Below are positions 1 to 45,829 of a stretch of DNA of 64,000 nucleotides, one piece after another. Origin of the DNA: Jutongia hominis (GTDB lineage Bacteria; Bacillota; Clostridia; Lachnospirales; Lachnospiraceae); assembly GCF_014384965.1 (NCBI RefSeq), contig NZ_JACRSW010000040.1, positions 62,001 through 126,000 of the forward strand. Direction: 5' to 3'. Every line of letters starts with the position of its first letter. Within the stretch, counting starts at the first letter, position 1. A program made the position numbers and the translations under genes. The notes under the pieces are model-generated. The model was not told where the DNA came from. It was given only the letters and a program-made list of their open reading frames with translations, and did not search any database.

Positions 1-43
1 ATTTTTCTATTCCTCCTCTTTTTGTTCACACCATATCTTGATT

Positions 44-546
44 TTATAGTAACTTTTCTTCTTTCCCTTTGAGATGAATGACAGCGTCATTTTATATTCT
101 GTGTTTTGTATTTCAAGTTATTTTTGTCTCTGGGGAGCACTATCTTGCCCTGATAAGGATATCTAAGATTTTTTGCTTTTTTGCTATGATTTTGGGCGCT
201 CTCATCTGATATAGGGGCAGGGCCTGTCTGATGTACATTGCTGTTTGGGAATCTCAAAGGCCGTCGCCACTTGCGCTGCAAAAAAGATTTGCTTTTTGCA
301 GTGCTATGTGTGCGCTACGTGGCTTTGCGAAGCGGGAGCGTGTCCCAAACAACAATGCTACTCAGGCTGAGTCGCCCCTATAGTTATGACCCGCGCCCAA
401 TTAGCAAAAAAGCCTAAAAAATCAGATATCCTAACAGGGCAGCGTGTCTTACCCCAAAGACAATAATATACTTGAAATACAGTATGTCATACTGTATATG
501 ACGCTGTATTTAAGATTTCAATAGGAAAGAAGAAAAGTTACTATAA
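44..546. repeat. Giant imperfect palindromic element, copy 1 (~503 bp)
   Basis: The two halves of this stretch are reverse complements of each other with interruptions. The outermost arms (44-66 against 524-546) match almost perfectly, and pairing continues inward: the motif GCGTCAT at 84-90 faces ATGACGC near 497-503, TTTCAAGT faces ACTTGAAA, and the core boundary TAAGGATATC (154) faces GATATCCTAA (about 425-434). The core 154-435 is nearly identical to 7440-7724. The apex is a small stem of GCTGCAAAAA with TTTTTGCAGTGC. No credible protein is encoded; short reading frames inside are by-products. It could be a giant structured RNA, or a MITE/fold-back element. It lies downstream of the minus-strand protease gene. 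Confidence 0.85.
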
Positions 547-637
547 ATACCTGCTTATGATGATAAAAGCTAAGAAATATGTTTGCACAAAAATGAGCAG
601 AAGTCAAATGTCCTTGATGCCATAACATAAATGCAAA

Positions 638-677
638 GCACCATATATCTTATGATCCGGCTTAAGATATATGGTGC
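638..677 (-). terminator. Hairpin downstream of the protease gene
   Basis: A perfect 15-bp stem (638-652 pairing with 663-677) with a 10-nt loop lies 40 bp past the stop codon of the minus-strand protease gene. The T-tract on the minus strand is short, so termination efficiency is uncertain. Confidence 0.6.
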
Positions 678-716
678 AATATATTTTATAATATATTTTG
701 TATGATATGGTATGTC

Positions 717-2993
717 TTATTTTACAATGATCTTGAGTTTTGCTTTTTTATTATTATAGGTCTTGGCGGTAATGATCGCAGTACCTTTCTTCTTTGCTTT
801 GATCTTTCCGTTTGATGAAACAGATGCCACCGATGGTTTAGAAGAAGTATAACGCATTGTCCGGCTTGCACTTCCTTTCGAAAGTTTTACTTTGAGTGAG
901 AGCTTTTTTCCTTTCTTGATTTTTTTCGAACCGGAAGGACTTAGCATAACTTTGGAAGGCGCTTTTTTCACGGTGATCTTAATGGAAGCTTTTGCTCCGT
1001 TAGAAAGACTTGCCGTAATCGTTGCCGATCCTCTTTTTTTTGTTGTGATCTTACCGGATCTTGATATTGCTGCAACGGATGATTTGCTGCTCTGGTAAGA
1101 AACACTACCGGTTGTATTTGTTTTTAGAAGTGAAGAAAGGGAATAGCTTTCTTTGGCTCCCAATGTTAATTTGGAAGAAGAAAATGCAATTTTTTGTGTT
1201 GTCTGACTGTTGTTCGTATGTGCTGTTGTATTGTTTGTGGTGCTGCTTTTTGTGTTTATTCCATTAGAAGAACTCTGAGTGTTATTGGAACTGTTTCCGG
1301 TTGTTGTATTTTGAGAGGAACCTGCACTGTTATTATTGCTGCTATTATTGGAATTTGTTGTATTATCTGCTTTTGAAGTGTTTGTTGTAAAAGCTTTCAG
1401 GCAGACATTGTTTTCTAAATCGTTCCGGCTGTCATAGTCAGACAGATCAGACCACTGATTGTCGAGATATAAGAAACTTTGGTTGCTTTGTGAAGTATAG
1501 GTTACTTTGGTGCTTCCATCGTCATAACTACCGCCCTCAATCGGTATATATCCTGATACATTTGATGTTTTATCATAAGAGATTACAACACTAAAAGTTT
1601 CGCCGGCGTTTAATGATACGGATTGGTCAAGAGTAATCACATGATACCCATTATATGCCTGTGTACCGGAAACTGTTTCGACTAATGTACCGTTAGTAGG
1701 GACATTTCCTGATATATTTTTGTATATGGAAATGGTATATGGCTGATTATCTTCTATTGTATAGATGCCAACCGAGTCCAGGTTTTGATTATAGTCTGTG
1801 TTTGCTGTAAAGATATTTGCAGCAAGCGTAGATGTATTACCGGATGAAATGGCATTTCCCCAGCCAAAACCATCATATTGATAAGCGTTGTCATATGTAG
1901 AGGCAGAAGCTGCTTTGAAACTGTAAAATTCTGTTAAAGTAGGTTCTTCGTAGGAGATCCAGAAATATCCATCGTCGCCGTAATCACTTCCGTAATTATT
2001 TGCAATCAGCCACGCTCCATCAGAAGAAGGCTGATAGGTACCAAAATTTTCTTTTGAATAATTATCGTCCCATCCAACGATCGTGACGCAATGGTTTGCA
2101 TAGGATGCGGCAGTCAGATCAGGGTCCATAACCGTATCATCGGTATATTTTTCCTGATAATATGCTGTGCCTGCTGAAGTAGTATGATCATAATTTTTAC
2201 TATAGTAAAAGGCAACATCAAGTGCACCGTTTTCCATTAAAACATTTTTGATCGTGTTATGTGATGAATTGTCATAGCAGGATGCATCTGTTAAAATGTA
2301 ATCTTTCTGATAAAAAAGGCTGTCACCGGCTGCATTCATGGAGGAAGCCATTGAATTTAACCGGTTTATGGTATCGGCTGAAAAAGGAGCGGTACTTTCA
2401 TTGACGGCACCACTGCCTCTTGCTAACGTAAATGCAGCGGACAGTGCATTGCCTCCCAGCATATAAGCGGCTGCATTTTGTGAGACAGATGGTGAAGAAT
2501 GGTAATGAGAAACCAGGCAGCCTTCTCCGGCAAGGAGATCATTTGCAATGCTGGATGTATGATACGTGTACCATGCCAGATGACTCTCTGAAAGATCTGT
2601 CTGATCAGCACTTCCCAGTCCTTGCATGATCAGGTTGGATTCTAAAGCTTTGATTGCTCCAAATGTCCAGCAGCTTCCGGTGACTCCCTGATCTTTGATC
2701 GATGTAACGGCATTCTGTGTGCGAAGATCATAAGAAGAGGGAAGGGCTGTGGCTTTTTTCTTAGAAGATGAAGTTATGGCTGTATTATCATTAAGAGAAA
2801 CTACATTTCCGTTTGTATCTTCATAATGATAATGTAAGAGCGAATCGTTCGTTGTGTCGTAGACACGGGTTAAAATTTTTACATTATCGGAAGATGTGTC
2901 AGCTTGTGCAGCCGATGGATAGACCGGTACGCTGCTGATCACTAAGGCTGTAGCAAATACAGTCGGGAAAAAACGTTTGTATAAATGCTTCAT
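717..2993 (-). CDS. Secreted papain-family (C1) cysteine protease with lectin-like and Big_2 domains
   Basis: A 758-residue exported peptidase. An N-terminal signal peptide (about residues 1-31, ending AAQA) is followed by a C1A peptidase domain: oxyanion Gln102 and catalytic Cys108 in DQGVTGSCWTFG, catalytic His301 in NHCVTIVGWDD, and Asn332 in WLIANNYGSDYG, the NSWG equivalent. After it comes a beta-rich segment (about 365-540) resembling the lectin-like domain often fused to clostridial C1 peptidases, then an Asn/Ser/Thr-rich linker (about 545-600) and two lysine-rich Big_2-type repeats to the C-terminus, probably for cell-surface attachment or spacing. Expected role is extracellular protein degradation. 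It is transcribed alone. The family assignment is firm; the substrate is unknown. Confidence 0.9.
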   Translation of the reverse strand: MKHLYKRFFPTVFATALVISSVPVYPSAAQADTSSDNVKILTRVYDTTNDSLLHYHYEDTNGNVVSLNDNTAITSSSKKKATALPSSYDLRTQNAVTSIKDQGVTGSCWTFGAIKALESNLIMQGLGSADQTDLSESHLAWYTYHTSSIANDLLAGEGCLVSHYHSSPSVSQNAAAYMLGGNALSAAFTLARGSGAVNESTAPFSADTINRLNSMASSMNAAGDSLFYQKDYILTDASCYDNSSHNTIKNVLMENGALDVAFYYSKNYDHTTSAGTAYYQEKYTDDTVMDPDLTAASYANHCVTIVGWDDNYSKENFGTYQPSSDGAWLIANNYGSDYGDDGYFWISYEEPTLTEFYSFKAASASTYDNAYQYDGFGWGNAISSGNTSTLAANIFTANTDYNQNLDSVGIYTIEDNQPYTISIYKNISGNVPTNGTLVETVSGTQAYNGYHVITLDQSVSLNAGETFSVVISYDKTSNVSGYIPIEGGSYDDGSTKVTYTSQSNQSFLYLDNQWSDLSDYDSRNDLENNVCLKAFTTNTSKADNTTNSNNSSNNNSAGSSQNTTTGNSSNNTQSSSNGINTKSSTTNNTTAHTNNSQTTQKIAFSSSKLTLGAKESYSLSSLLKTNTTGSVSYQSSKSSVAAISRSGKITTKKRGSATITASLSNGAKASIKITVKKAPSKVMLSPSGSKKIKKGKKLSLKVKLSKGSASRTMRYTSSKPSVASVSSNGKIKAKKKGTAIITAKTYNNKKAKLKIIVK

Positions 2994-3199
2994 AAAATCT
3001 CATCCTTTCTGTTACAATGTTTTTTGTTTTTTTAAGATTGCTTGTATCTGAAAAAGTCGTTTTTTATTGCAATGTTTCCGATGCTGCTTTCTCTGGTTTG
3101 TCTGTATCTGTAAAAGCAATCCCCTATCCGTTTAATACCATGCTTTTTTAGTAAGGGTATTCCTATGGTCAGCCGGGTTGTAATGATCTGCTTTTTTTT

Positions 3200-3229
3200 A
3201 TTATACAGGTTATTTCTGTTCACAGACAA
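3200..3229 (-). promoter_or_regulatory. Putative sigma-A promoter of the protease gene
   Basis: On the minus strand, TTGTCT (3224-3229) and TATAAT (3200-3205) are separated by 18 bp, giving a leader of roughly 200 nt before the protease start codon. The leader contains a degenerate repeat of TGTATCTG-AAAAG. Confidence 0.5.
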
Positions 3230-3640
3230 GTCTTTATGATTAACATAAAGATTTTTTGTGACAGAATTCGTCTAGGGTTGTGACGATTTTGTGTGCAAGA
3301 CTTTATATCAAGAGTGCATCAATGGGAAAATGATCTCAAAATCAAAGGAATACAGGTGTTGAAAATCAGGAGATCTACAATCCAAAAAGCAATTATAAAA
3401 ATAAAAGAATCTATTGGAAGAAACTGCAAGTGCAGAAAATAGGAGAATACATTGGAAGAAACTGTAAGTGTAAAAAAGCCAAAGAATATACAAACAGAAT
3501 TGCATGCATTAAAAATACGAGAATATACGAATTCAAAAACATAGGACAAAGGTGTTAAAAATAAGAGAATAAATTGTCAAAAAACAGCAGAAAATGAGCA
3601 GATACAATGGAAAAATGCTTTGAGATTAAGGTAATGGTAA
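3230..3640. other. AT-rich intergenic region with degenerate tandem repeats
   Basis: No credible gene is seen here. The stretch is AT-rich and carries a degenerate ~40-bp tandem duplication whose most recognisable part is TTGGAAGAAACTG (about 3413 and 3453), followed by further A-rich partial copies with GAGAATA. Short reading frames on the minus strand lack ribosome-binding sites and family features. Confidence 0.5.
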
Positions 3641-3669
3641 TTGTATGAAAAAATAAAGTATGTTATATT
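3641..3669 (+). promoter_or_regulatory. Putative promoter of the DUF368-AI-2E gene pair
   Basis: TTGTAT (3641-3646), a 17-bp spacer and TATATT (3664-3669) precede the DUF368 gene by about 45 bp. Confidence 0.5.
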
Positions 3670-3719
3670 TATAGAAAATTATATTTCAAAGGGAGACTTT
3701 GAAGAGAAAAGAGGGTATC

Positions 3720-4571
3720 ATGAAATATTTAATTGACATTCTAAAAGGTGTTGTAATTGGTGTGGCGAATGCAATCCCCGGTGTAAGCGGTGGAACGATG
3801 ATGGTTTCTATGGGTATCTATGATGATATTATCTATTGCATCACGCATCTGTTTAAGCAGTTTAAGAAAAGCGTATTGATGCTTCTTCCATATTTTATAG
3901 GTATGGCAGTCGGCATTGTCGGGTTGGCATTTGCGATTCAGTATCTGGATAAGAACTTCCCGTTTCAGACAAGAATGGTCTTTATCGGTCTGATTCTTGG
4001 TGGTGTTCCGATGCTTTTTCAGAGAGTCAAAAAGCAAAAAATCGGAATTGCCAATGGAGTGGTCTTTTTGATCTTTTTTGCATCGATCATTGCAATGCAA
4101 TATTTTGGCGGTAACGGAACCGATGTCGCATTAACGATCGGGGTGTTATCGTTGATCAAGTTGTTTGTAGTCGGTGTGATCGCCTCAGCTACGATGGTTA
4201 TACCGGGTGTCAGTGGATCTATGATGCTAATGATCATGGGATATTATAATCCAATCATGAAAGCAATCACAGACTTTGTAAAAGCAGCTACAAGCGGAGA
4301 CTGGGGAAATGTACTTCATATCGGTGCAATCCTTGTACCGTTTGGTATTGGAGTGGTACTTGGTATCTTTGCGATCGCTAAGATCATTGAATGGCTGTTA
4401 AACAAAGCAGAAGGACTTACTTATTCTGCAATTCTAGGTTTAGTGATCTCTTCCCCAGTTGTTATTTTGATGGGAACTGCATTATCAGGCATTGGTGCTG
4501 TTACGATCGTAACAGGAATCATCGCATTGGTATTAGGCGGCATTTTTGCTTTAAAACTCGGTGGCGAATAA
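3720..4571 (+). CDS. DUF368 membrane protein, undecaprenyl-phosphate translocase family
   Basis: A polytopic membrane protein of about 283 residues. The N-terminal ILKGVVIGVANAIPGVSGGT motif and its internal echo ASATMVIPGVSGSMMLMIMG, one in each half, are the hallmark of DUF368; both P-G-V-S-G motifs are visible. Members of this family (PopT) have been linked to recycling undecaprenyl phosphate across the membrane for cell-wall synthesis. I place the start at ATG 3720, which has AGAGGG six bases upstream and gives the usual family N-terminus; a TTG at 3699 would add seven residues. It is followed 24 bp later by another membrane-protein gene, probably in one transcript. Confidence 0.88.
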   Translation: MKYLIDILKGVVIGVANAIPGVSGGTMMVSMGIYDDIIYCITHLFKQFKKSVLMLLPYFIGMAVGIVGLAFAIQYLDKNFPFQTRMVFIGLILGGVPMLFQRVKKQKIGIANGVVFLIFFASIIAMQYFGGNGTDVALTIGVLSLIKLFVVGVIASATMVIPGVSGSMMLMIMGYYNPIMKAITDFVKAATSGDWGNVLHIGAILVPFGIGVVLGIFAIAKIIEWLLNKAEGLTYSAILGLVISSPVVILMGTALSGIGAVTIVTGIIALVLGGIFALKLGGE

Positions 4572-4595
4572 ATACAAAAGAACGGGGGCGTTTGT

Positions 4596-5729
4596 ATGGG
4601 TAACGAAGGAAAAAAAGAGTTGCATAAAAGAATTTATATGAATTTGTTGTGGACATTGATGATACTGCTTTGTATTGTCTTTGTTGTACCACCGTTGATA
4701 CGTTTTTTTATGCCATTGATCGTGGCATGGATCATAGCGGCAATTGCTAATCCGATGGTACGGTTCCTGGAAAATAAAATTAAGATTATGCGAAAACATG
4801 GTTCTGTGATTGTCATTGTGCTGGTGCTTCTGGCAGTCGGTGCATTGCTTTATGGCATCGGTTATGTGACGGTAGCACAGGTAAGCAGTCTGATAAAGGA
4901 TCTTCCGGGAGTCTATGAACAGGTAGTGCAAAATCTTCAGGATTCATTGGGAAAATTGCATCAGCATTTTGATTTTATTCCAGACAATATCAGTGAACTG
5001 ATCGACAAAAATGACAGTAAGCTCAACAGCTTCTTCTTATCATTTTTTGATTCATTAAAGACCAGTCCTATCTCCGCAGTAGGTTCGTTCGCAAGTTCTT
5101 TGATCGATATCATTGTAATGAGTATACTGACTTTAATGATTTCCTATTTCTTTGTTGTACAGAGAAATGAGATCAAAGCAACATTTAAGAAATATCTTCC
5201 AAAAGGAATCAAAGATATTTGGAATGTTGCAATGGATACCTGCATTCGTGCACTGGCAGGATATATCAAGGCATTATTTAAGATTATGATCATTATATTT
5301 GCAATATTGTTTGTGATATTTGGTGGTATTTTGCATACGAAATACGCAGTTGTCTTAGCTTTGGTAACAGCTTTTCTTGATTTCCTTCCATTCCTTGGAA
5401 CAGGAATTATTATTACTCCATGGGCAATTTATTGTGCTTTGACCGGAGATTATCTGAGTGTTGTTGTATTAGTTATTACTTACTTTGTCTCGTTGTTGGC
5501 ACATCGTCTGCTCGAACCAAAGTTAGTCAGCGACAACATTGGCATGAGTCCGTTTGCTACGCTGTTATCTATGTTCATTGGATATCGTTTGATCGGTATG
5601 CTTGGTTTGATCGTAGGTATTCCGGTTGGAATGATTGTTGTAGCCTTTGTGGAACAGGGAATATTTGATTCACAGATCCGCGGTATCAGGATATTACTTG
5701 ATGACTGGAATGAATACCGTAAATATTAA
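4596..5729 (+). CDS. AI-2E/YtvI-family integral membrane transporter
   Basis: A 377-residue protein with about seven to eight hydrophobic segments and the layout of the AI-2E transporter family (PF01594): an N-terminal hairpin of membrane helices (about 16-90), a soluble middle (about 95-165), and a C-terminal bundle with the family motif around DFLPFLGTGIIITPWAIYC and LLAHRLLEPKLVSDNIGMSPF. Firmicute members include the sporulation protein YtvI and putative exporters; an actual AI-2 role is not implied. It lies 24 bp after the DUF368 gene on the same strand and ends before a strong bidirectional hairpin, so the two probably form an operon. Confidence 0.85.
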   Translation: MGNEGKKELHKRIYMNLLWTLMILLCIVFVVPPLIRFFMPLIVAWIIAAIANPMVRFLENKIKIMRKHGSVIVIVLVLLAVGALLYGIGYVTVAQVSSLIKDLPGVYEQVVQNLQDSLGKLHQHFDFIPDNISELIDKNDSKLNSFFLSFFDSLKTSPISAVGSFASSLIDIIVMSILTLMISYFFVVQRNEIKATFKKYLPKGIKDIWNVAMDTCIRALAGYIKALFKIMIIIFAILFVIFGGILHTKYAVVLALVTAFLDFLPFLGTGIIITPWAIYCALTGDYLSVVVLVITYFVSLLAHRLLEPKLVSDNIGMSPFATLLSMFIGYRLIGMLGLIVGIPVGMIVVAFVEQGIFDSQIRGIRILLDDWNEYRKY

Positions 5730-5849
5730 AGGTCAAAGAAAAGTATAGAAGTATAGAAAAACTTCTGTATAGATAGCAATATAGGAGAATGGTTTCTTGA
5801 TAAAAGTATAGAAAAACTTCCTGATTAGAAAAGAATATCGTAATAAAAA

Positions 5850-5946
5850 GACCATAGAATCTTTGTATCAGCTTATCATAATTTATGCTTTTTGAGCCTG
5901 TTATGATAAAACTTAACAAAGATCTTATGGTCATTTGTTTTTTTAA
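5850..5946. terminator. Bidirectional terminator between convergent genes
   Basis: A long interrupted hairpin: GACCATAGAATCTTTGT (5850-5866) pairs with ACAAAGATCTTATGGTC, and inner TTATCATAA pairs with TTATGATAA. A T-rich run follows on the plus strand and an A-run precedes it, so it can end both the AI-2E-family gene and the opposing VanZ-like gene. Confidence 0.85.
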
Positions 5947-5984
5947 CATTGTAACTTTCAAAAGTTGTCTTTTCGTATCCAGAA

Positions 5985-6866
5985 TTAATAGTTATCCTGG
6001 AAGTGCCAGAGCTTTTTGACAACGGTACGATCTTCTAAAAAATCTCTTTTGTGTACTTCATAAGAAATACGGTATACGATATAATAGATTGCAATACCGA
6101 CCAGAATGCCAATCAGATAAAAGGTATAATCATCAATATCAGCCCGGCCGATGCCTGTCAGGAACTGAATAAATTCAAGCAGAAATGGCAGGAACAGATA
6201 TGTGAAAATACGAGGTGTGATCGAATGATTTCTTAAAAATACTCTGATGTAAAAACCTGCAGGAATGCCAAGGACGATCATTTCAAGCATATAGGTGATC
6301 ATTTTGGTAATGGAGGCATGATGTGATAAAGCATCTTCAATATAATTACCGGTTGCCATAAATGGAATAAAGTTATGTGCACCAAAATCCATTGTTTCAT
6401 AAGGTGGAAGTAGCGGTGTGACAAAAAGCAGCTTAACTAAAGCGATTGCATAAATTATAAGGAAAAGAATGCTCATTCCGTAAAAGAAAAATAAGTATTC
6501 GGCAAAACGCGGACCACGGTCACAAAAATCGCGGATAAAGCAGTAGCCAAATGGAATGAACCAGTTTACAATGATCAAAGCAATCAGGCTGTAATCATAT
6601 GCAATCCAGACATTTGGCTGCATCAGGTAAACAATGATCGTAAATGCTGTCGATGTAATCGTCATAAAAGATGCATGTAAAAAACAATAATCATAGTTCA
6701 GGGAACTTTCCAAAAAGAAATGTGCAAGTCCCAGTGAAATGATTGCTGCTACTGCAACAGTGATCAGATGCTGTGGTATAAAATAATATAAACACATTTC
6801 AAAAAGAAATGAAAGTAAGGACAGCAGTATAACCAAACTACTGATATTAACGGAACGTTTATTCAT
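5985..6866 (-). CDS. VanZ-like family membrane protein
   Basis: A 293-residue protein with about eight hydrophobic helices. The C-terminal half carries the VanZ-like signature: NFIPFMATGNYIEDA, then a helix ending in LLEFIQFLTGIGRADIDDYTFYLIGILVG, with the conserved E..Q and D-I-D-D residues. The N-terminal half (about 1-150) is an extra membrane region not in minimal VanZ proteins. VanZ confers low-level teicoplanin resistance in enterococci, but most clostridial homologues have no known role. It is a single-gene unit converging on the preceding operon. A second, shorter VanZ-like gene lies at 46881. Confidence 0.8.
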   Translation of the reverse strand: MNKRSVNISSLVILLSLLSFLFEMCLYYFIPQHLITVAVAAIISLGLAHFFLESSLNYDYCFLHASFMTITSTAFTIIVYLMQPNVWIAYDYSLIALIIVNWFIPFGYCFIRDFCDRGPRFAEYLFFFYGMSILFLIIYAIALVKLLFVTPLLPPYETMDFGAHNFIPFMATGNYIEDALSHHASITKMITYMLEMIVLGIPAGFYIRVFLRNHSITPRIFTYLFLPFLLEFIQFLTGIGRADIDDYTFYLIGILVGIAIYYIVYRISYEVHKRDFLEDRTVVKKLWHFQDNY

Positions 6867-7036
6867 AGAATTCTCCTTTTTTTACGAAGTATCTTTCTTC
6901 TTGGTAAAAGATTTTTCTTCTTAGTTTTTAGTATGGTCCAATTCAATTTCATCATACGTTATTTCATTATAGAAGATTTTGAAAAAAAAGCAATCGTCAT
7001 TCTAAACAAAAATATAAATTTTTTTCAAAAAAAGGG

Positions 7037-7065
7037 TTGACAGATTTTAATGTGTTTGATATAGT
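7037..7065 (+). promoter_or_regulatory. Promoter of the tRNA pair
   Basis: A consensus TTGACA (7037-7042), 17-bp spacer and TATAGT (7060-7065) end 25 bp before tRNA-Val. Confidence 0.85.
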
Positions 7066-7089
7066 AAACAAGTCGTGTGAAACGAAAAC

Positions 7090-7162
7090 GGGATCTTAGC
7101 TCAGCTGGGAGAGCATCTGCCTTACAAGCAGAGGGTCACAGGTTCGAGCCCTGTAGGTCCCA
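7090..7162 (+). tRNA. tRNA-Val (anticodon TAC)
   Basis: A 73-nt cloverleaf: acceptor GGGATCT pairs with AGGTCCC, discriminator base A; the D arm contains TAGCTCAGCTGGGAGAGC, the anticodon loop is CTTACAA with TAC, and the T loop is GGTTCGAGCCC. CCA is not encoded. It is the first of a two-tRNA operon. Confidence 0.95.
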
Positions 7163-7192
7163 TAGGTTTTTCTTTAGCGATAAAAATAATAT

Positions 7193-7266
7193 GGCGGAAT
7201 AGCTCAGTTGGCTAGAGCATACGGTTCATACCCGTAGTGTCATGGGTTCAAATCCCTTTTCCGCTA
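7193..7266 (+). tRNA. tRNA-Met (anticodon CAT)
   Basis: A 74-nt cloverleaf with acceptor GGCGGAA against TTCCGCT (G1-U72 wobble), D arm TAGCTCAGTTGGCTAGAGC, anticodon stem TACGG/CCGTA around TTCATAC, and T loop GGTTCAAATCC. The features fit elongator tRNA-Met; a CAT-anticodon tRNA-Ile2 precursor cannot be excluded by eye. It is 30 bp after tRNA-Val. Confidence 0.9.
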
Positions 7267-7329
7267 CTTGTTTAAAGCCTTACAGATTTTGCTCTGTAGG
7301 GTTTTTTACTTTATAAAAACACCAACAAA

Positions 7330-7830
7330 GTCCTGACAGATCCTATCATATCATATGCAAAATCATACAATGCGTCATATCGAAATGAATGCATTCCCAT
7401 TTCTATTTGCTCTTCCTTTTGGTGCACTGTTTCGATTGTTAAGGATATCTAAGATTTTTTGCTTTTTTGCTCTTATTATGGGCGCTCTCATCTGATATAG
7501 GGGCAAGGCCAGTCTGATGTACATTGCTGTTTGGGAATCTCAAAGGCCGTCGCCACTTGCGCTGCAAAAAGAGAGACACGCTTTTTGCAGTGCTATGTGT
7601 GCGCTACGTGGCTTTGCGAAGCGGGAGCGTGTCCCAAACAGCAATGCTACTCAGGCTGAGTCGCCCCTACAGTTATGACCCGCGCCCAATAAGCAAAAAA
7701 GCTTAAAAAATCAGATATCCTAACCAATCGTCGTGTCAAACCAAAAGGAAGGACAAAATAGAAATGGGAAAATATACTATATTGGGATATGACGCAGTGA
7801 TAACATTCCAATGATAGGATTTGGCAGGAC
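7330..7830. repeat. Giant imperfect palindromic element, copy 2 (~501 bp)
   Basis: This is a second element of the same kind as 44-546, inserted between tRNA-Met and ispF. The core 7440-7724 is about 95% identical to 154-435, with changes mostly in the terminal loop. The outer arms (7330-7439 and 7725-7830) share almost no sequence with copy 1 except GCGTCAT at the same offset (7372-7378), but they pair with each other: GTCCTGACAGATCCTATCAT faces ATGATAGGATTTGGCAGGAC, CCCATTTCTATTT faces AAATAGAAATGGG, and CTTCCTTTTGGT faces ACCAAAAGGAAG. The right end stops about 50 bp before the ispF start codon. Confidence 0.85.
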
Positions 7831-7879
7831 ATAGGATGAATTTTTGTATAGATGAAAAGACAGAATGGGAGGAAAAAAG

Positions 7880-8425
7880 ATGCGTGTAGGTATGGGATAT
7901 GATGTGCATAGATTAGTAGAGGATAGGGAACTGATCTTAGGTGGTGTAACGATACCGTATGAGAAAGGACTGCTCGGTCATTCCGATGCAGATGTGCTTT
8001 TACATGCGATCATGGATGCATTGCTTGGAGCAGCGGCACTTGGAGATATCGGGAAGCATTTTCCGGATACCGATGATCAGTATAAGGGGATTTCCAGTAT
8101 TGCTTTATTAGAAAAGGTTGCTAAGCTTTTGGAAAAAGAATGCTATATGATTGAAAACATTGATGCGACGATCATTGCACAACAGCCAAAGATGCGTCCG
8201 TATATTGAGCAGATGGAAGAAAATATTGCCAATGCACTTGGAATTGAAAAGAATCGTGTGAATGTGAAGGCAACGACAGAAGAAGGCCTTGGTTTTACCG
8301 GTCAGAAAGAAGGAATATCTTCACAGGCAATCTGTTCGATCTCATCAATGTATGAGCATATGTCATCAGATATGGCAGCACCACAGACCGGATGCAATGG
8401 CTGTAGTGGCTGCCGGAGAGTGTAA
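7880..8425 (+). CDS. ispF: 2-C-methyl-D-erythritol 2,4-cyclodiphosphate synthase
   Basis: A 181-residue enzyme of the non-mevalonate isoprenoid pathway that cyclises CDP-methylerythritol 2-phosphate to MEcPP with release of CMP. Visible family motifs are the N-terminal GMGYDVHRL with the metal ligands Asp and His, [32 protein letters not shown], and the C-terminal [25 protein letters not shown] place the start at ATG 7880, which follows GGGAGG by about eight bases. The usual length is about 157 residues; this copy has an odd 20-residue tail ending [12 protein letters not shown], rich in Cys and Gly. It is a single gene converging on the S1-domain gene with only four bases between stops. Confidence 0.95.
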
Positions 8426-8429
8426 TACA

Positions 8430-9350
8430 TTATAGCTTAATTCCCTGTAATAATTTTGCGAAGGGACTTTCATCGTGCGATTCTTCGGAATCGGCATTGT
8501 ATTCTTCCGGAATATCGAAAGTCTCTTCTTCTGTGTCCGGTTCGTCTTCTTTTAATGCTTTGATGCTTAAAGAAATACGGTCACCTTCGATCTTTAGAAT
8601 CTTTGCTTTGACTTTTTCACCCATTTTTAAGACTTCTTTTGGAGACTTGATAAATTTGTTCGTGATCTGTGAAATGTGACATAGGCCGGAAATATCTTCT
8701 CCGAGTGCGATAAAGACACCATAGGATTCCATTCGTTCAATCGTACCTTCGACGATATCACCCACCATCAGTCTGCCAATACGCAGGTTCTTCTCGGCTA
8801 ATGCTTGTTCTTTTGCGATTGCTTTTGCTGATAGAACAAGCTTTTTATGTTCCGGTTCTACAGTTAAAATGACAGCTTCCACGGTCATGCCTACATAGCT
8901 GTCTGTATCCTCAACATAATTTAAGGCAAGTTTAGAAGCCGGAATAAAGGCACGTATCCCTTTTACAAAGCCGACAACACCTGCAGGGACTGCCTCTGTG
9001 ATCTTTACAGAAAAGACTGTATGATCTTCAAAATCTTTTTGCAATTCATCCCAGACTAATTCATCATTGGCTGCTTTCATTGATAAGACGACATTGCCAC
9101 TTGCACTTTCTGCATCAATAACCATTACTTTTACAATATCTCCGATATTCAGATCATTTTTGATCGAGAAGGAAGGATCGTGGCTGCATTCTTCCAGAGG
9201 AATCACGCCCTCTGTATAATATTGCAAGTCGACGGTTGCTTCTGTATCTGATATACCGATGATCGGTGCTTCTAAAATGTCGCCCTCTTTTAATACTTTA
9301 AAAGAACGGTTGATCTCGTCTTCAAAATCTTTCATGTTTTCTTCTGCCAT
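8430..9350 (-). CDS. S1 RNA-binding domain protein (RpsA-like)
   Basis: A 306-residue cytoplasmic protein with three S1 (OB-fold) units. Domain 1 spans about 20-88 (GDILEAPIIGISDTEATVDL), domain 2 about 105-175 (degenerate, KITEAVPAGVVGFVKGIRAFIPASKL), and domain 3 about 193-263 (GDIVEGTIERMESYGVFIAL and GLCHISQI). The tail is acidic (EDEPDTEEE). This resembles the short S1-like proteins of Clostridia, which are truncated relative to the six-domain ribosomal protein S1 of proteobacteria. A role in mRNA binding or translation is likely but not shown here. The gene is monocistronic and convergent with ispF. Confidence 0.85.
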   Translation of the reverse strand: MAEENMKDFEDEINRSFKVLKEGDILEAPIIGISDTEATVDLQYYTEGVIPLEECSHDPSFSIKNDLNIGDIVKVMVIDAESASGNVVLSMKAANDELVWDELQKDFEDHTVFSVKITEAVPAGVVGFVKGIRAFIPASKLALNYVEDTDSYVGMTVEAVILTVEPEHKKLVLSAKAIAKEQALAEKNLRIGRLMVGDIVEGTIERMESYGVFIALGEDISGLCHISQITNKFIKSPKEVLKMGEKVKAKILKIEGDRISLSIKALKEDEPDTEEETFDIPEEYNADSEESHDESPFAKLLQGIKL

Positions 9351-45012: not shown

Positions 45013-45609
45013 TCAACTGCTTTTTGTATTATGTATGGACTGGATAAAAAAAGCAATGGAAACATTCAGTACAGACAGCAGACCGCAAAAAAATAAAATA
45101 TTACAAAACTTATAGTGTCCTTTAAAATAGAAAAAGAATTGTAACAGGATCATCAATATACAACAAATGATACATATTTTTTTATTCCTTTTGCGATAGT
45201 GGTCGGTCATTTTCTTTGAGGAACTGTCAATTGGTGCCATCAGGCAGATCGTAAAGCATTCCAGAAAGAAAAACGCCGGGTGGGACAGAATAGAAAATCC
45301 GATATTATTATTACAAAAAAGCATCGTAATAAAATAACTCAGATAAGAAAGAACAACACACAGACCGGATGCGGGAGCATGCAGACCTCCGGCAAAAGTT
45401 CGAAATGGGATCATGACCAGTAAGAAGATCAGAGTTTCTTTCAGATTATGTAATAAGGCACCGAATAAAATAATAGATGCGATATAAACAATGTTTTCAA
45501 AAAGAAATTCATAACAATACGAATAGATATCATGTTCTTCTTTTTTTATGATATTAGCTTCTATCATTGTGTTTGTCAGAGCTTCGCTCATTTTTTGAGG
45601 CAATTTCAT
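45013..45609 (-). CDS. agrB: AgrB-family peptide-processing membrane protease
   Basis: A 198-residue membrane protein that cuts AgrD and closes the autoinducer ring. Catalytic residues fall exactly at His77 and Cys84 in RTFAGGLHAPASGLCVVLSYL, the same numbering as the well-studied staphylococcal protein. Four to six helices follow. Its promoter (ATTATA at 45675-45680 on the plus strand, TATAAT on the minus) faces a large palindrome. Its substrate is probably the small peptide encoded divergently at 46043. Confidence 0.93.
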   Translation of the reverse strand: MKLPQKMSEALTNTMIEANIIKKEEHDIYSYCYEFLFENIVYIASIILFGALLHNLKETLIFLLVMIPFRTFAGGLHAPASGLCVVLSYLSYFITMLFCNNNIGFSILSHPAFFFLECFTICLMAPIDSSSKKMTDHYRKRNKKICIICCILMILLQFFFYFKGHYKFCNILFFCGLLSVLNVSIAFFIQSIHNTKSS

Positions 45610-45674: not shown

Positions 45675-45829
45675 ATTATACATGAATTTTTGGTGAAAAA
45701 CCAAAAAGGGGGACGAAATGACAAAAATGGGGGATGAACGGTAAAATTTTTTAAAAAATTACCGTTCATCCCCCATTTTTGTCATTTCGTCCCTGCTTTT
45801 GGTTTTTTTGATTTAAAGTGTGATATACT
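45675..45829. promoter_or_regulatory. Divergent agr promoters flanking a symmetric palindromic operator
   Basis: A 35-bp perfect inverted repeat (45710-45744 against 45759-45793) is centred at 45751.5, with imperfect outer extension to about 45694 and 45809. Each arm contains two direct copies of GGGGGA[CT]GAA with starts 21 bp apart (45708, 45729), the spacing of LytTR (AgrA/VirR) box pairs. A minus-strand TATAAT (45675-45680) and plus-strand TATACT (45824-45829) are 74 and 75 bp from the axis, and neither has a good -35. This fits activator-dependent divergent promoters for agrB-agrC and agrD. Confidence 0.8.

Follow-up and report, generated by a model that had tools for sequence, protein, structure and literature searches.

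Two long palindromes in the stretch of the Jutongia hominis genome analyzed here (64,000 nucleotides, in the following the window) appear to be oversized members of a widespread and apparently unnamed repeat family. It is likely that they represent large, probably nested members of a high-copy and lineage-restricted family of mobile, non-autonomous fold-back repeats that resemble REPs and MITEs. As a dispersed palindromic repeat the element belongs to an ordinary kind, its form is unusual, and it gives a clear signal of helix maintenance at the DNA level.

The first palindrome (copy 1) extends from 43 to 547 and thus comprises 505 bp, which means that the first-pass annotation, with a palindrome of about 503 bp at 44..546, was right to a few bases; 345 of 521 columns of its self-alignment are identical. 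A second one had been announced for the same window and is found at 7302..7858 (copy 2; 557 bp, 63.7% of 575 self-alignment columns), located between a terminator-like site that follows the tRNAs (7274-7305) and a gene which we take to be ispF-like. Folding of positions 40-550 as RNA, proposed in the annotation as a check, gave -239.4 kcal/mol (z -19.40) with none of 100 shuffles equal, and for 7330-7840 the corresponding values were -238.7 and -16.67, again with 0 of 100 shuffles equal. Both palindromes contain a common core on the plus strand, at 154..435 (282 bp) and 7440..7724 (285 bp), that had been described as near-identical and indeed shows 94.4% identity over 288 bp; on reading, the differences fall mostly in loops or paired positions. 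Around this core the arms were claimed to be about 110 bp long and to pair with each other. The pairing holds for both copies, the length for copy 1 only, since the arms of copy 2 measure about 138 and 134 bp. In copy 1 the left arm (43..153, plus strand) pairs with the right arm (436..547, plus strand) in 86 of 107 aligned positions (z 11.7 versus shuffles), in copy 2 the left arm (7302..7439, plus strand) with the right arm (7725..7858, plus strand) in 100 of 127 (z 8.9). Between the copies these arms are nearly unrelated (left with left z 0.7, right with right z 3.0) and have just short motifs in common, namely GCACT facing CGTGTC..ACC and GCGTCAT facing ATGACGC. In the two-copy alignment the latter pair lies on the plus strand at 84..90 and 498..504 in copy 1 and at 7372..7378 and 7789..7795 in copy 2. 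Judged from core identity, own-arm pairing and these few common motifs, the two copies look homologous over most of their length, with loops conserved and helices free to vary. A third palindrome of the window, near-perfect (89%) and 112 bp long (45696-45807), is found upstream of a presumably agrB-like ORF (45013-45609, minus strand) and runs into a T-tract. Partial and rearranged synteny with the window was detected in genome G287, which shows 83% DNA identity in the isocitrate dehydrogenase gene.

The absence of a credible protein, also claimed for the first palindrome, agrees with the reading frames: the longest stop-to-stop frame inside copy 1 has 75 codons and the longest frame wholly inside copy 2 has 62, another one of 120 codons running out of the palindrome. 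Public protein clusters include reading frames of the core; one query gave 12 proteins and a second one 32, in overlapping lists. Many of these spurious proteins carry different tails, which means that the window-type element is present at many loci in metagenomic contigs. As can be read from the sequences, the length of the apical loop is not the same in the window copies as in the proteins found elsewhere, which shifts the frame. The core was considered as coding sequence and rejected because its reading frame differs among copies; since the frame is not kept, the spurious proteins are treated as non-coding. One of them, P0005, stems from an ORF on a 688-bp contig in which a start that reads as ABC-ATPase-like is fused to the frame of the element; either insertion into a gene or a chimeric assembly would account for it.

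No Rfam family matched over any element when the window from 1 to 8500 and 31 family loci were searched at E ≤ 1 (in one search E ≤ 0.5), in line with the first-pass annotation, which knew no family that fitted. In the window the searches returned two tRNAs plus weak matches that lie off the elements or are of no weight; a weak match of 32 bases (E 0.63) is located in the right arm of copy 2. At one family locus (L078) two matches of the TwoAYGGAY RNA (RF01731), at 1-110 and 1802-1968, flank the family element. Whole copy 1 has no match in the phage and plasmid collections, and the same is valid in blastn for one copy from genome G179 against the phage collection and one copy from G017 against the plasmid collection. 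No relative was revealed by exact k-mer scans of GTDB 220 contigs (10 stretches) and IMG/VR (15, 0, 0 and 0), and none of 35 IMG/VR stretches that came up as candidates for encoding a relative of the spurious protein P0007 was confirmed. With blastn at E ≤ 1e-3 against loci L001-L025 just stretches of 20-23 bases were found (L001-L004 and L006), and none in the viral loci. A published description of this family was not found in searches of the openly licensed literature.

The lead to the family came from a single place. Blastn with the core in draws of 397, 3, 11 and 116 genomes yielded short matches in 2, 0, 0 and 2 genomes, respectively, and among three such places (L027, L028 and L057) only L027 from genome G008 is a hairpin with the same loop. 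It contains an exact 22-base match in an intergenic hairpin, in which the loop strand TCTCAAA faces TTTGCGAAGC-GGGA-GCGTG. A pattern search with this 22-mer, allowing up to two mismatches, returned 1 of 299 genomes, namely G008 itself; its hairpin is single-copy by blastn, yet G008 has two matches of the later model R2. A first covariance model (R1) was built from three sequences, i.e. the apical domains of both window copies (about 100 bp) and L027. Among 394 Lachnospiraceae-type genomes, drawn from the family of the genome carrying L001, it matched 79 at E ≤ 0.1, of which 67 pass the stricter E ≤ 0.001; these E-values are per genome, so that by chance about 39 and about 0.4 of the 394 would be expected, respectively. 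G008 was recovered by necessity, because R1 is partly built from it. The even genome draws (those of 397, 299 and 394 among them) overlap heavily and are not independent samples. The second model, R2, comprises 37 matches including the three sequences of R1, and at E ≤ 0.001 it found copies in 25 of 30 chosen genomes, most of which were picked because R1 had already matched them; G399, G002, G004, G006 and G007 showed no R2 match at this threshold. The richest twelve genomes contain 137, 123, 78, 77, 49, 47, 45, 43, 41, 40, 37 and 32 copies; since 137 candidates were scored per genome, the first of these values is a lower bound. A search with the core had been recommended in the annotation for the detection of many intergenic copies, and such dispersed copies do exist, in both orientations and in the numbers given. 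In a class-wide draw 9 of 321 genomes were matched, 7 of which were already in the family draw and the other two outside it.

The core of the family element is composed of an asymmetric internal loop, a GC-GNRA-GC mini-hairpin and variable helices. The apical family domain defined by R2 fills just the inner 100 bp of the window rods, at 247..346 in copy 1 (plus strand, 79.6 bits, E 1.5e-17) and 7533..7635 in copy 2 (plus strand, 76.0 bits, E 1.3e-16), both being themselves model-building sequences. The 5' strand of the loop is the TCTCAAA already mentioned for L027, at 252..258 and 7538..7544 of the plus strand, and the mini-hairpin in its 3' strand has in both window copies the form GC-GGGA-GC (332..339 and 7621..7628, plus strand). 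A mini-hairpin of the GC-GNRA-GC type occurs at this place in 149 of 154 distinct family copies, with GAGA (86), GAAA (30), GGGA (22), GCGA (5), GCAA (4) and GGAA (2) as the loop types. In an alignment of 103 distinct cores, which was fitted to the model, 92.6% of the cells pair, 22 of 24 pairs have changed on both sides, and 491 doubly changed cells face 133 in shuffles; if the partners are slid by 1-3 columns the paired cells fall to 29-45%. The inner pairs are absent from R1, and therefore fitting does not explain why they covary in the first alignment. Outside this core of about 98 positions the arms add about 30 bp per side (median of 154 copies), and in 79% of the copies they are above the 95th percentile obtained when arms are paired across copies. 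For 114 distinct copies the arm pairing score is 17.5 with the own partner versus 5.7 across genomes, and within G017 it amounts to 17.9 versus 9.5. In G152 and G179 the copies have common arms, hence own and cross pairing are close (18.8/19.0 and 18.5/15.8). The arms in G179 are common to most copies shown, and most of these end, on reading, in AGGGGCTGT/ACAGCCCCT or close variants. Being palindromic throughout, the element has terminal inverted repeats as a MITE does. Where two copies are neighbours within 1 kb, 20 of 23 pairs are arranged minus then plus and 3 of 23 plus-plus. Among minor variants read from the sequences are two copies that exceed the usual length by about 60 bp and bear an additional hairpin-like insert in their apical loop (L167, 1910-2063; L168, 1847-2001) and one in which the right half is partly tandem-duplicated (L188, about 9140-9230).

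Mobility is suggested by a comparison of genomes. G179 and G454 belong to one genus, and 14 of 15 listed matches of a G179 element in G454 are 87-92% identical (the fifteenth, partial, 78%), whereas 11 listed gene matches on contig C2 are only 66-79% identical. The G179 element at L155:9858-10070 is absent from G455, where the gap between the genes measures 116 instead of 314 bp, and its place in G454 is taken by 770 bp of other DNA. Another G179 element (L155:308-537) is absent from G454 (gap of 188 versus 339 bp), with a weak flank alignment (61%) on one side. No R2 match is present in the empty-site stretches of G455 and G454. Presence and absence as in a MITE is thus seen at two loci, which are the whole of the empty-site evidence. 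Target-site duplications, by which a MITE was to be recognized according to the first-pass annotation, did not appear by eye around copies from the window, G179 and G454, and no empty site had closely alignable flanks. In one gap where G454 has no counterpart of the G179 element (L220, about 330-1250) there are two short ORFs, which look like a toxin-antitoxin pair, and a terminator-like hairpin. Gene contexts were taken from a crude ORF caller (90 or 100 aa) and not from a gene predictor. In 29 long loci with 44 elements, an overlap of more than 40 bp with a called ORF was seen for 7 elements and a position in a gap of 100 bp or more for 36. The density is highest in convergent gaps (1.65/kb, 12 of the 44), followed by tandem (0.53, 22) and divergent ones (0.19, 2); the loci were chosen for holding elements, hence the density ratios alone are meaningful. 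With respect to the 3'-side ORF 79 of 114 matches are antisense, with a median distance of 73 bp to its stop codon as measured from the end of the model and not of the arm, and 35 are not; a few places enter these counts twice. Such mixed orientation to genes together with multiple copies is the mark of a mobile or repeat sequence candidate.

It has to be asked whether the pairing is kept at the level of RNA, i.e. whether the hairpin is a structured RNA, transcribed usually with the neighbour gene, whose helices covary because RNA pairing is selected; as its role a 3'-end stabiliser, a processing or protein-binding element or a free ncRNA could be proposed. The very strong covariation (22 of 24 pairs), the closeness of the elements to gene ends and the GNRA loops, confined to one strand, all fit this explanation, and an RNA would also keep such loops. 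Under selection on RNA, G-U pairs would be expected to be common and A-C mismatches rare. Yet among 2,462 cells of the 103 distinct cores there are 37 G-T and 34 A-C besides 2,243 Watson-Crick cells, and isolated arm mismatches are 32 G-T versus 27 A-C (p 0.60), in a comparison in which related copies are not independent. By contrast, when the acceptor stems of 15 tRNAs located in these loci were counted, 9 G-T and 1 A-C were found in 105 cells; this control is small, and its stem offset was picked for most Watson-Crick pairs. In the Fisher test of elements versus this control, p is 0.037 when the ratio is compared and 7e-5 when the G-T rate is. The window copies alone contain 9 G-T and 4 A-C isolated mismatches, which are too few to decide. 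Sorted by direction of the neighbour genes the G-T/A-C counts are 20/17 (antisense only), 10/5 (sense only), 7/9 (both) and 0/3 (neither), with no clear strand bias. That G-T is no commoner than A-C points to a process at the level of DNA, and not to selection on RNA, as what mostly keeps the helices complementary. Such a process is documented, since template switching between hairpin arms is a source of compensatory changes without G-U intermediates (PMC8794818). A putative trace of it is found in the protein P0028, which after the common W reads DTLPLRKA where other proteins read ESQRPSP or similar; exactly this peptide results when the complement of the opposite loop strand of the window (321-344) is translated, which looks like one arm copied over the other. 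This arm-corrected loop is a single known case, taken from a protein record. When the family loci were searched for its pattern no further one was found, the sole match lying in other sequence. In synthetic DNA fragments, GNA or GNNA loops closed by two or more G-C pairs form exceptionally stable mini-hairpins (PMC4686876), hence a GNRA-like loop by itself is no argument for RNA. Considering in addition the mixed orientation to genes and the missing Rfam match, we hold a structured RNA to be unlikely. Of the two possibilities offered by the first-pass annotation, a rod-like RNA or a fold-back/MITE element, the latter has been strengthened by the dispersed copies and their presence or absence at a site, and the former weakened, despite strong covariation, by the lack of a wobble excess.

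Two further explanations concern the origin of the palindromes. The elements could be oversized intrinsic terminators of the host, some of them bidirectional, that were copied around for use at gene ends. Their density between convergent genes is in accordance with this, as are two features noticed on reading: the outermost stem of many G179 and G454 copies resembles AAGGNNCTGT...ACAGNNCCTTTT and covaries by locus, and a small terminator-like hairpin stands where G454 lacks the element (L219 and L220). But there is no excess of T-tracts at the arm ends (on average 3.52 T in 10 positions versus 3.25 in the control; 302 ends of 154 copies scored), such tracts are missing from the ends of the window copies, and a separate tRNA terminator precedes copy 2, all of which makes terminators very improbable. 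Alternatively, palindromes that were already there may have received a short hairpin element in their loops, and the locus-specific arms would then be host DNA. Insertion sequences that target palindromes are known (PMC1525189), locus-specific and well-paired stems outside the common core are present in G031, G305 and part of G017 and G454, and composite elements exist in G331. In G017, however, a helix of 14-15 bp that varies by copy and stays complementary (by reading) is enclosed by the conserved outer motifs AACTAGC and GCGAACC on one side and the core on the other, which means that the helix there is part of the element, and the empty site in G455 shows no better folding than its shuffles (z 0.22), 113 of 200 of which do as well. 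We therefore consider this origin quite unlikely.

The composites of G331 are instructive also for the preferred reading of a mobile fold-back repeat. Seven copies (L110, L112-L116 and L118) consist of an inner unit within outer arms; the same outer arms also occur with a simpler hairpin (L115:777), and the inner unit also stands alone. Part of the right strand of the outer element is missing in the composites, so the insertion was not clean or has decayed since. By analogy with G331 the window rods are probably nested builds as well. How such a repeat could work may be outlined as follows. The family has probably colonized above all intergenic DNA, with its highest density between convergent genes, and, being mobile and without a gene of its own, would be moved by an enzyme encoded elsewhere. 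The asymmetric loop and the GC-GNRA-GC mini-hairpin could be recognized, or used for priming, in DNA that is extruded or single-stranded, the loops being held by selection or by the need for recognition. Helices might vary freely because template switching during replication copies one arm onto the other, and long rods would form when one hairpin element inserts into the tip of another. Going further, one could see here a new class of mobile DNA working via a single-stranded fold, in which mini-hairpin and loop are recognized, a preference of insertion for hairpin tips nests the elements into rods, and template switching between the arms lets the private stem of each copy drift quickly with its complementarity kept; we propose this wider reading tentatively and with low probability.

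MITEs such as ERIC, RUP and Correia are non-coding, palindromic and multi-copy. The element has all these properties and is a MITE-like candidate by form, but its arms vary between copies with pairing kept. The closest published category is that of the mobile/repeat sequence candidates (PMC11109978), and more loosely that of REPs and MITEs. Narunsky et al. (2024) describe under this heading MRSC-65-2 from diverse phyla, which has a UYCCGG repeat and for whose structure the authors allow an action as DNA (PMC11109978). Many copies per genome, a single long stem and strong covariation are common to both, whereas the core with asymmetric loop and GC-GNRA-GC probably sets the present element apart from the published description of MRSC-65-2, and so does its narrow occurrence in the class-wide draw (9 of 321 genomes, see above). 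REPs are dispersed extragenic palindromes associated with RAYT transposases; they measure 20-40 bp and bear a GTAG or CGTC tag that is unpaired (PMC3733652). Like REPs and BIMEs the element is dispersed, extragenic and palindromic and often found in pairs of opposite orientation; unlike them it is larger, with its core and arms and, in the window, its rods of more than 500 bp. CGTC and CTAC do occur in its core, on reading, at largely paired and covarying positions inside the stem and not at its end. The template-switch hairpins (PMC8794818) resemble it in their compensatory changes by arm-to-arm copying but concern RNA genes, while here the process would act on an interspersed repeat. Finally, the conserved GC-GNRA-GC fits the rule of GNNA loops on G-C pairs (PMC4686876) and could thus be exceptionally stable as DNA, although the published mini-hairpins are synthetic fragments.

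A repeat that reaches at least 137 copies per genome and is found in about a sixth to a fifth of the 394 sampled genomes matched no Rfam family. It offers a natural test of whether compensatory changes are a proof of RNA function or a product of template switching in DNA, and in this case the rarity of wobble pairs separates the two. Furthermore, it creates spurious ORFs, sits between many genes and may break assemblies: in G017 the contigs C68, C82, C103, C288 and C331 start at most 22 bases from an element, as if the assembly had been broken there.
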